This document shows, piece by piece, positions 18,705 to 22,601 of a DNA stretch of 51,012 nt (position 1 is its first letter; the number at the start of each line of letters is the position of its first letter). The translations under genes were made by a program, and so were the position numbers. The notes below the pieces were generated by a model that made no database searches, was not told the origin of the DNA, and saw only the letters and a program-made list of their open reading frames with translations. The stretch is from assembly GCA_022821275.1 (NCBI GenBank), contig JAJEDY010000092.1, positions 1 through 51,012 on the forward strand, read 5' to 3'. This DNA is from Candidatus Latescibacterota bacterium. GTDB taxonomy: Bacteria; Latescibacterota; UBA2968.

Positions 18705-19073
18705 CTATTTCCTATTTTTTAACATTGAGATAAAGTAGTCAACATTGCTTTGATATTTATTTTTTGAACCTGGATAAACCAGATCAGATTCTATACCAAG
18801 CGCTGCCATTTTTTCTTTTAAAGCAACACCAAACTGCACGTGATGCACTTTCCAACCACGGGCAGTCTGTCCTTCTGGCACAGGGTCTTTCGGTGACATT
18901 CTATAGCTCATATAAATAGCGGGATCGTCCTTTGAGATCAAATCAAGCGCCGAAATCTCGCTTACGCGATTCTGATATTCTTCCTGGGTCGTTGCGCCTA
19001 ATGTCTGATAAAAATCAAAGACGTTCCGCTCGTGGGGGCCGTACTTGTAATTTCCAAAAGAGTGGCGTCTCAT
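18705..19073 (-). pseudogene. Internally deleted alpha/beta hydrolase (esterase) remnant
   Basis: A 122-codon frame with a good ribosome-binding site (AGAGGAG) and an intact start. The first 25 residues (NYKYGPHERNVFDFYQ) resemble the beginning of BD-FAE-like esterases, while everything from ISALDLISKDDPAIYMSY onward, through ARGWKVHHVQFGVALKEK to DLVYPGS, resembles their last 90 residues. The centre, which should hold the HGGG oxyanion loop and the nucleophilic Ser in GxSxG, is absent. The simplest explanation is an in-frame internal deletion of roughly half the gene. It could still make a short inactive protein. Confidence 0.6.
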
Positions 19074-19122: not shown

Positions 19123-20115
19123 TCAAACCCACTCAAATACCACACCCAACACTTCTCTCGGATTATCGGCGAGCATATCGTAGATAGTCTGGCAATCGGC
19201 GGGATTGGCGACATGGGTAATCAAATCTTCGATGGGCAACTTGCCCTCAGCCATCAAACGCAAAATTAGCTCGCGATCTCTGCCCTTGCTCCACGGATAA
19301 TAAATATGGTCATTATCCGGCGTCTTGGGCTGATGCGCGCCCAGAATCGTGATCTCGCGCAAGTGAATCTCGGGCAAAAAACTCACTTCCACGGTCCCCC
19401 GCGGAGACCCCAGCGCGACCAGGCGGCCACCCAGCCGCGGCAAAGTCAGCGCCATGGGATAAACCGCGGGAATACCCGTCGCTTCGATGACCAGATCGAC
19501 ACCATCGCCCACGCAATGCTCGCGCACCACTTCGGCGACATCCCCTGCAGTATTGGGATTGATACAAACATCTGCCCCCCTGTCCCTCGCTTTCCCCAAC
19601 CGAAAATCATCCAGATCAATCGCAATAACCGGGAACGCGCCAGCCAACCGCGCAAAGGTCGCTGCCAATTGCCCCACAATGCCCATACCAGTAATAGCCA
19701 CAACCTCACCCAATTCTGGACGCCCAACCCGATGCCCGTGCATGGCAATAGCACACATAACCATAAAAGCCGCCGACCTGGGCGAAACACCCTCGGGCAC
19801 TCTAAAAAAATTCCCACTTATGACCGCGTGACTGGTGTGATTGCCCTGCGCGGCAATGCGATCACCTGATTCTATTCCCTTCACATCTTTCCCCACCTCG
19901 AGCACCACACCCGTATTGCAATATCCCGTTGGTCGGGGAAAGGTTCTCGCACGCGACGGCTCACCGCCATAAGCATAATTGTAAATTTCCGTGCCAACGC
20001 TCACAGCAGTATAATCATTCTGCACCAAAACACCATTGTCTGGCACACGCGGCAGATCAAAGTCCTCTAATTCAATCCGCCGGACATCTGTACATATTAA
20101 TCGTTGTGCTTTCAC
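19123..20115 (-). CDS. Medium-chain (MDR) alcohol/sugar dehydrogenase-like oxidoreductase
   Basis: A 330-residue MDR-superfamily protein. The GroES-like N-terminal domain includes YTAVSVGTEIYNYAYGG and GDRIAAQGNHTSH; the Rossmann domain includes VVAITGMGIVGQLAATFARL (GxGxxG) and an acidic DLDD after strand 2, suggesting NAD preference. The four structural-zinc Cys residues of classical ADHs are missing. An ATG lies two codons upstream (20121), but GAGGAG abuts that ATG directly, whereas the GTG at 20115 lies 6 bases from it and gives the family-typical MKAQRL start. Substrate unknown; likely a polyol or sugar derivative. Confidence 0.82.
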   Translation of the reverse strand: MKAQRLICTDVRRIELEDFDLPRVPDNGVLVQNDYTAVSVGTEIYNYAYGGEPSRARTFPRPTGYCNTGVVLEVGKDVKGIESGDRIAAQGNHTSHAVISGNFFRVPEGVSPRSAAFMVMCAIAMHGHRVGRPELGEVVAITGMGIVGQLAATFARLAGAFPVIAIDLDDFRLGKARDRGADVCINPNTAGDVAEVVREHCVGDGVDLVIEATGIPAVYPMALTLPRLGGRLVALGSPRGTVEVSFLPEIHLREITILGAHQPKTPDNDHIYYPWSKGRDRELILRLMAEGKLPIEDLITHVANPADCQTIYDMLADNPREVLGVVFEWV

Positions 20116-20212
20116 GACCATCTCCTCTGTGGAAGGGGTACAACTGGCCGTTTTCCAGACCAGTTCATCTACGATAGCAGTTGGGTGGGGTTCGTCTATT
20201 CGTCTATTCGTC

Positions 20213-21535
20213 TTACGGAGGATCCACAGGGACCTTTTGCTTTTTTTTAATCAGCGGATCGTACTTAAACCCCTTCGTTCCCTTTTTAAATTCCGCACGC
20301 GCTGCTTGCAACAGCTTTTTGTCCAAAATCAGATCAATAGCCGATCCTGCAAACACCTTTGCCGTTTGCAGAACTGCGCGCTCGGCATAAGGCATTATCG
20401 CCTGCGCGGTCATATCGCGGTGATGGCCCGGCGTGCCCTTTGTATAACACACCATCTGAAACCGACCCATAGGCGCCAGCCACGACACATTGTCTTCATC
20501 CGAAGACCCGCGCCCCTGTGACCCCTTCCCCTTTTTGACCTTTCCGTCAAATTCACCTTTGTATCCCAATTCCTTTACGCGTTCCTTATCCTTTTTAGAA
20601 GCACGCGGCGGACCGAATAATTTGAGATTTTGACGCACGGTTTCGCACATCACATCATTTGGCAAACGCGGGTACACCGCTGTAATCCGATTCCATTTCA
20701 TAGTCGTTTCCGTAGCCATCGCCGCACCCTTGGCGCATCTGGTCAATCGCTTGCGTACTTTATTCACCTGTTCACGATCCTTCCCCCGCACATAGTACCA
20801 CACCTTCGCATAAGCCGGAACCACATTGGGCGCATCTCCACCATCTCGTATCACGCAGTGGATACGCACATTTTCGGGAACGTGCTCGCGCAAATAATTC
20901 GCCGCAACATCCATCAACATCACCCCATCCAATGCACTGCGCCCATTGTGAGCACTCGCGCCGTGAGACGTCTTGCCAAAAAACTCATATACCAGCGAAT
21001 CCAGCGACGAACCGCCATAATTGCTGACACCCGTACCCGATCCCGGATGCCACGCCAGCACCGCATCCAAATCTCTAAACGCGCCATCGCGAGCCATATA
21101 CACCTTGCCAGCCAGCGTCTCTTCAGCCGGACAGCCGTAATAAATAATCTGACCGGATGACTTCAAATTTTCCAATACTGTCTTTGCAGCAACCGCACCT
21201 GCGGCCGGGGCAACGCCCAAAAGATTATGACCTCAGCCGTGGCCCCAGGTGCCCTCCTCGGCACCGCAATTGGGCAATGCGTCGTACTCCCCCAACATGC
21301 CAATAGTGGGTTTGCCCGTGCCCCAGATGGCGCGAAAAGCCGTTGGAATCTTTTTAAACGGAAATTCAATTTGAAATCCGTTCTCCTCCAAATACGCCGC
21401 CAAAGCCTTTGACGACTCGTATTCCTGAAACGGCCGCTCAGCCCAGCCGTGAATACTCCGCGACAAATTAAACGCCCGCTGCGATTGAGATTTCACAGCC
21501 TGATCCACCTGTGATTTTTTTGTTTTTGCATCCAT
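20213..21535 (-). CDS. M20-family amidohydrolase (AbgB-like) interrupted by an in-frame TGA at the metal-ligand Cys codon
   Basis: One continuous frame of 440 codons read through a TGA at 21235-21233 (codon 101). The N-terminal part ends LGEYDALPN...GTWGHG and the reading resumes GHNLLGVAPAAGAVAA. In AbgB/aminobenzoyl-glutamate hydrolases this motif is GHGCGHN, so TGA exactly replaces the Cys that coordinates the metal. The rest is intact: GCPAEET, LAWHPGSG, FFGKTSHGASAHNGRSALDG and TPGHHRDM. AGAGGAG precedes the ATG. Either the codon is read as selenocysteine, or a single substitution (TGC or TGT to TGA) has inactivated the gene, or it is a sequencing error. A serine hydrolase gene lies 13 bp upstream. 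Confidence 0.7.
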
Positions 21536-21548
21536 CTTTGGCTCCTCT

Positions 21549-22601
21549 CTATTCCTTTACCGCATTCACAATTCGCGCAATCACCTCATTCTGACTCCCG
21601 ATCTTATCCTGCTCTTCCCTGAACTGATCCCACAACCCTGGATTTTGCGCGATAACCAATCCCAGCCGCGGGCACATCCAGATATGTTTGGCACCAGCAC
21701 CCGATGCAGCAAAAGAGTCTCTCGGCGCATCTGCCCACTGCATCCCGCGATCATTACACCAGAATCCGTGTCCGTATTTCCAGTTCTCTTCGGGTTCGTT
21801 ATCCAGAATAAAATCATTCGTCACCGTTGCCTCGCGCAAGTAATTCTCCGGCGCGACCTGAACCCCATTCCAATTGCCGTAATTGACCCACAAATGTCCC
21901 ACCCGCAACTGATCTCGCAATGTGGTATGCACCTGTGTGTAATACCCAAAGATATTTAACCTCGCATTGTCCCATAAATCAAAATTAGAATGCGAATGCG
22001 TCCACATCCCGCCAATTGGATCGCGCAATTTTTCTTCTATCACTTTCCCACATCCCGGCGAACCCTCGGGATCATTTGCATCGTAACACCCGTAAATTTT
22101 AGCCATTGCGTGGGTGAGAATATTCATCCCATAAGTCTGATAGTGAAAAACCTTGCCGGGTTTCTCTCCCGGTTTCATATAACCAGACACATTGCATATC
22201 AAATGCCGAAAAGTAATATCGCGATCTTTTTCAAACGCATACCGCCCGGGTTTCGGACCTTCTTGCTCGCCCACATCCATCATCTCTGGATAGTAATCGA
22301 CGACTCTTTCATCTGGTGAAGCCAACTTTCCCTCCGCCACGACAATGCCCAAAAGCGTCGAATAATACGACTTTGCAGCAGACGCCTGAGAGGGTATCGA
22401 ATCAGCCGCAACACCTTGCCGCCACTCCGCCGCGAGATACCCATAACGCGCAATCCCCACCTGAAAGGACCTATCACCCGCCACCTCGCGCAACCACCTC
22501 TGTACCCGCGCGAGTTTCTCCGCGTCAAATCCGAGATCACCGGGCGGCCTCGTCTCCCATTCTGCTCCTGGAAATGTCACATCCATATTATTTATCTCCA
22601 T
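21549..22601 (-). CDS. Beta-lactamase-class-C-like serine hydrolase
   Basis: A 350-residue protein of the penicillin-binding/beta-lactamase fold. The nucleophile motif SxxK is S74-A-A-K77 within SQASAAKSYYSTLLG, and HYQTYGMNIL contains the Tyr/Asn pair of the second motif. A stretch near the C-terminus (FAASGAGAKHIWMCPRLGLVIAQN) fits the third strand motif. There is no signal peptide, so it is more likely a cytoplasmic esterase or amidase than a beta-lactamase. Its ATG shares one base with the TAA of the upstream enolase gene (TAATG), which indicates a tight operon. Confidence 0.82.
   Translation of the reverse strand: MEINNMDVTFPGAEWETRPPGDLGFDAEKLARVQRWLREVAGDRSFQVGIARYGYLAAEWRQGVAADSIPSQASAAKSYYSTLLGIVVAEGKLASPDERVVDYYPEMMDVGEQEGPKPGRYAFEKDRDITFRHLICNVSGYMKPGEKPGKVFHYQTYGMNILTHAMAKIYGCYDANDPEGSPGCGKVIEEKLRDPIGGMWTHSHSNFDLWDNARLNIFGYYTQVHTTLRDQLRVGHLWVNYGNWNGVQVAPENYLREATVTNDFILDNEPEENWKYGHGFWCNDRGMQWADAPRDSFAASGAGAKHIWMCPRLGLVIAQNPGLWDQFREEQDKIGSQNEVIARIVNAVKE

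Follow-up and report, generated by a model that had tools for sequence, protein, structure and literature searches.

HmrA of Staphylococcus aureus (PDB 3ram; MEROPS M20D) and PM20D2, the Xaa-Arg (beta-alanyl-lysine) dipeptidase (PDB 7yh4), share their fold and their metal-binding motif, GH-x-C-GHN, with the protein described here and are its best sequence and structure matches, with about 26% identity over the structure match; they carry Cys at the position where a lineage of Latescibacteria has an in-frame UGA that we read as selenocysteine (Sec). In CsAga, an N-alpha-acyl-glutamine aminoacylase (PDB 6slf; about 20% identity), two zinc ions are bridged by Cys-105 and additionally bound by His-107, His-168, His-370 and Glu-141 (PMC7209930), so that a bridging thiolate there stands against a predicted selenolate here. 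Sec bound to a catalytic metal, likewise decoded from UGA with a SECIS element, is known from formate dehydrogenase alpha and [NiFeSe] hydrogenase (PMC13188914); those proteins are redox enzymes that use Mo/W or Ni, whereas the M20 protein is a hydrolase for which we predict a dinuclear Zn-type site with Sec in the bridging position. A review of May 2026 counts 119 prokaryotic selenoprotein families or subfamilies, none of them named for M20 or amidohydrolase, and the nearest recognised hydrolase-type entries are UshA-like and MerB-like (PMC13188914). We found no Sec-containing M20 enzyme in the open literature, with most subscription papers and preprints lying outside the search. One paper that combines hippuricase (M20) and selenocysteine wording is unrelated and reports the absence of selenium genes (PMC5658510).

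The window analysed here, a contig of 51,012 nucleotides from a Candidatus Latescibacterota bacterium, encodes on its minus strand a single frame of 440 codons followed by TAA, with a TGA at codon 101 as the sole internal stop (Table 1). The preliminary description had reported this frame and had placed the TGA where AbgB-like enzymes have Cys in GHGCGHN, and frame and position are both borne out, the former by translation of the minus strand and the latter by the homologue alignment: the interruption reads W-G-H-G-[TGA]-G-H-N-L-L-G, and relatives carry the metal-ligand Cys there (GHG-Cys-GHN). The encoded protein matches TIGR01891 at 198.4 bits (cut-off 153.75), contains the Pfam M20 dimerisation domain and the M20 fold, and is labelled by NCBIfam (June 2026) only as a general amidohydrolase. 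Its nearest solved structures by sequence are HmrA (E 1.6e-40) and human PM20D2 (E 1.5e-37). The earlier label "AbgB-like" does not stand, as the match to an AbgB-type protein, the Klebsiella aminobenzoyl-glutamate utilization protein, is far weaker (E 1.4e-5); AbgB, the aminobenzoyl-glutamate hydrolase subunit, is thus rejected as the closest M20 relation. We conclude with high confidence that this is a selenoprotein gene and that its product is a dinuclear metallo-amidohydrolase of the M20D type (HmrA/PM20D2-like), with Sec specified by UGA 101 and the selenolate most likely bridging the metals; incorporation of selenium, the bridging, the substrate and amide hydrolysis itself are all inferred.

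Table 1. Positions of the M20 gene, its predicted functional elements and its neighbours in the window
Feature	Position	Strand	Basis or remark
Selenocysteine-containing M20D-type amidohydrolase, 440 aa (predicted)	20213..21535	-	ATG at 21535, TAA 20215-20213; orthologues; purifying selection either side of TGA
In-frame TGA, codon 101, predicted Sec at bridging metal-ligand Cys position	21233..21235	-	TGA in 23/23 close orthologues, TGC in L050; Cys in all other homologues
Predicted metal ligand His103	21227..21229	-	Invariant in 100 homologues; CsAga His-107 by spacing
First small conserved hairpin 3' of UGA, GGGC-GUU-GCCC	21208..21218	-	Stem unchanged in 23/23; variable loop (ACA in L014)
Putative bacterial SECIS hairpin, CGGCCGC-AGGU-GCGGUUG, 7-bp stem, 4-nt loop (A/G)GGU	21190..21207	-	32 nt after UGA; -9.3 to -11.4 kcal/mol
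Glu138 (predicted general base) and Glu139 (predicted metal ligand)	21119..21124	-	Invariant in 100 homologues; CsAga Glu-140/Glu-141
Predicted metal ligand His163	21047..21049	-	Invariant in 100 homologues; CsAga His-168
Predicted metal ligand His371	20423..20425	-	Invariant in 100 homologues; CsAga His-370
Zinc-type medium-chain dehydrogenase; conserved neighbour on the downstream side, perhaps in the same operon	19123..20121	-	Loci of the order with enough flank
Beta-lactamase-fold hydrolase, upstream neighbour	21549..22601	-	Adjacency not generally conserved

A search for orthologues across the order (21 genomes) and the phylum (64 genomes) returns close orthologues with one TGA from 23 genomes, the window's own included, at 72-98% protein identity. 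These span 8 genera and 3 families, and every one comes from a separate genome assembly, two of which are single-contig. Direct translation places the TGA at the same codon, with no other stop, in all 23 and reveals no unrelated disabling mutation in any relative, while dN/dS between pairs of orthologues is about 0.05-0.15 both upstream and downstream of it. The nearest orthologue without the TGA, L050, is 67% identical and has TGC (Cys) at codon 101, the exchange between TGA and Cys that had been proposed as a check; every other homologue has Cys in this otherwise invariant column. One of the homologue scans of genome contigs was seeded partly by a Cys-containing pattern and is therefore biased towards Cys forms. 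A tree of 61 proteins groups the Sec forms in one clade (support 100/98), with L050 as its sister and only Cys forms among the further outgroups. Since the Sec clade is nested among Cys forms, a single gain of Sec from Cys is the simplest history and the probable one; the alternative is that L050 reverted to Cys and its genome lost the sel genes.

The codons downstream of the UGA are constrained beyond what the protein requires of them. Pairwise codon identity over the 22 full-length orthologues averages 0.51 at the 198 degenerate codons that specify an invariant amino acid, and just 7 of these codons show no variation at all; six of them follow one another as informative codons within codons 107-114, a clustering that none of 20,000 permutations reaches, and the same six remain frozen when each lineage is represented by one sequence. 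In the Cys form L050 most of the frozen codons are changed and the SECIS-type pattern is lost. Two hairpins can be folded from the frozen region, GGGC-GUU-GCCC and, after it, CGGCCG(C/U)-(A/G)GGU-GCGGU(U/C)G, the second of which meets the published constraints on bacterial SECIS elements (loop of 3-9 nt, stem of 4-16 bp, G in the first two loop positions, 16-37 nt from the UGA, MFE <= -7.5; PMC13188914) in all 22 full-length orthologues. In a scan of all 310 testable codons, no other conserved hairpin of this type reaches a stem length of 6 bp. We argue that the second hairpin is the putative SECIS core, because the first has an ACA loop in the orthologue L014. The support for the hairpins consists of invariance and one-sided G-C/G-U changes: no compensatory double changes are found in them among the orthologues, and 60-nt RNA folds of the region gain no stability over shuffled sequence (z about 0). 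An Rfam scan of the window found no family.

All four components of the Sec pathway that the preliminary description had named as a check, selA, selB, selC and selD, are present in the window's genome: selA (584 bits) adjoins selB (388 bits), and tRNA-Sec (selC; 70 bits, anticodon UCA) lies about 100 bases after selD. This selD (L069, G000:C84:52601-53722) has an in-frame Sec-type TGA of its own, in the motif CGG-U-ASK, as another UGA-encoded Sec in these genomes. In several of them the selD TGA is followed by a hairpin with a GGU loop, and the M20 gene has (A/G)GGU; the selD loop lies closer to the UGA (about 20 nt) and has a different stem from that of the M20 hairpin. Of the 21 genomes of the order, 20 have selA above the cut-off and all 21 have selD. 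In G057, the genome of the Cys form L050, searches for selA, selD and tRNA-Sec found none, and that for selB gave only a match at the level of EF-Tu; this genome is 86% complete, so the absence is not absolute, although several separate absences are unlikely by chance. The sel genes were likewise not found in G027, which has only a distant Cys form, and they are present alongside a distant Cys form in G028. For one Sec form (G013, a fragmented MAG, 91% complete) we found neither selA nor selB, with selD and tRNA-Sec present. Another genome of the order, G006, has selA and selD but no Sec M20 orthologue, which indicates that this enzyme is not the only reason for keeping the sel system.

Residues Cys/Sec101, His103, Glu138, Glu139, His163 and His371 are invariant in an alignment of 100 homologues, and the TIGR01891-type ligand pattern, C/U-x-H, E-E, H and H, is present with Sec replacing Cys. 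In CsAga the corresponding ligands are Cys-105, His-107, Glu-141, His-168 and His-370, a match for the Sec101 site that rests on motif, order and spacing, not on a residue-by-residue alignment. An AlphaFold model (pLDDT 81, weaker in the loops beside the site) superimposes on HmrA with a TM score of 0.75 and on 6slf with 0.67, and also matches PM20D2. We infer, by homology only, that the two metals of the active site are most likely bridged by the selenolate; which metals they are is not shown.

The dehydrogenase downstream lies on the same strand as the M20 gene and is directly adjacent to it in the family of the window's genome and within about 1.4 kb in the sister family. An enolase-superfamily gene and smc hold their position in most loci of the order with enough flank; the remaining neighbours are variable and in one genome include an M19 dipeptidase and a solute symporter. 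This context suggests the catabolism of a dipeptide or an N-acyl amino acid, with the substrate itself not shown. At 18705-19073 (minus strand) lies the remnant of a BD-FAE-type alpha/beta hydrolase, of which only residues 57-71 and 221-325 are matched and the middle is missing; the relative L156 has an intact copy of 327 aa. In the close relative G015 (L156:4089-8608, compared with 21535-22601 of the window), two extra genes, one AAA-ATPase/nuclease-like and one weakly helicase-C-like, lie between the enolase-type, beta-lactamase-type and M20 genes, and the window is without both.

Several readings would do without selenium. A single change of TGC or TGT to TGA is enough to produce a recent pseudogene or a sequencing or assembly error, as the preliminary description had allowed, but the same TGA recurs in 23 genomes of 8 genera with no other lesion in any, and the gene is under purifying selection downstream of it; this alternative is effectively refuted, and we give it next to no weight. 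The other genes of the window use TGA as an ordinary stop (12 of the 27 ORFs counted), which rules out global UGA reassignment. The shared single TGA, the dN/dS values and these stops elsewhere together make a pseudogene, a sequencing error or a changed code very unlikely. Translation might also end at the UGA to leave a functional N-terminal piece of 100 residues, or restart to give a functional C-terminal piece, for which the ORF list does offer a TTG-initiated frame (20213-21220) downstream of the TGA; the break would then fall within the metal-binding motif, among residues that do not vary at the protein level, and L050, the Cys form, encodes a single uninterrupted chain of equal length, so that we consider a split or shortened product highly improbable. 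UGA readthrough occurs in bacteria generally, and in principle a suppressor or near-cognate tRNA could insert another residue at the codon (e.g., Trp, Cys or Gly), or the readthrough could be unspecific, without selenium in either case. Against this stand the normal use of TGA as a stop in the window, the SECIS-type constraint downstream of the UGA, the complete set of sel genes, and the fact that the Cys form has lost both hairpin and sel genes; we think this reading very unlikely.

A further possibility accepts the insertion of Sec but denies it the role of a simple bridging ligand: it may serve as a redox-sensitive switch or bind another metal, in a regulated or repurposed M20 protein. Redox proteins make up most known selenoproteins (PMC13188914), and there are no biochemical data on this protein; on the other hand, the remaining metal ligands do not vary, nor does either Glu, no resolving Cys is adjacent to the Sec (GHGUGHN), and the fold around the site is that of an ordinary M20 protein. 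We hold this to be unlikely, but it retains real weight.

The preferred reading remains that of a Sec-containing dinuclear hydrolase, and the Sec interpretation of the preliminary description is supported by the conserved UGA, the sel genes, the SECIS-type hairpin and the Cys orthologue L050, whose genome yielded no sel genes. None of the three refuting conditions set out there, checked directly or by proxy, overturns it. In the mechanism that we propose by analogy, SelB and tRNA-Sec would read UGA codon 101 as Sec, directed by the predicted SECIS hairpin with its loop starting 32 nt downstream. The Sec would replace the invariant Cys, zinc-bridging in CsAga, and its selenolate would most likely form the bridge between the active-site metals; a metal-bound water, activated by Glu138, would then cleave an amide bond in a dipeptide or N-acyl amino acid. 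With rather less assurance, although we favour the idea, we propose that this is the first hydrolytic selenoenzyme with Sec bridging a dinuclear metal centre, that selenium serves the electronics of the metal site and not redox chemistry, and that the Sec form arose once from Cys in Latescibacteria and has been maintained across families by selection.

A selenocysteine M20 gene of this kind would come out of standard annotation truncated or split, and the family adds to current selenoprotein catalogues, from which it is missing. Why selenium is used in place of sulfur is an open question to which the usual answer is redox chemistry. A Sec hydrolase and its natural Cys sister, at 67% identity and from a genome without detectable sel genes, would provide a direct pair with which to test the effect of selenium on a non-redox metal site.
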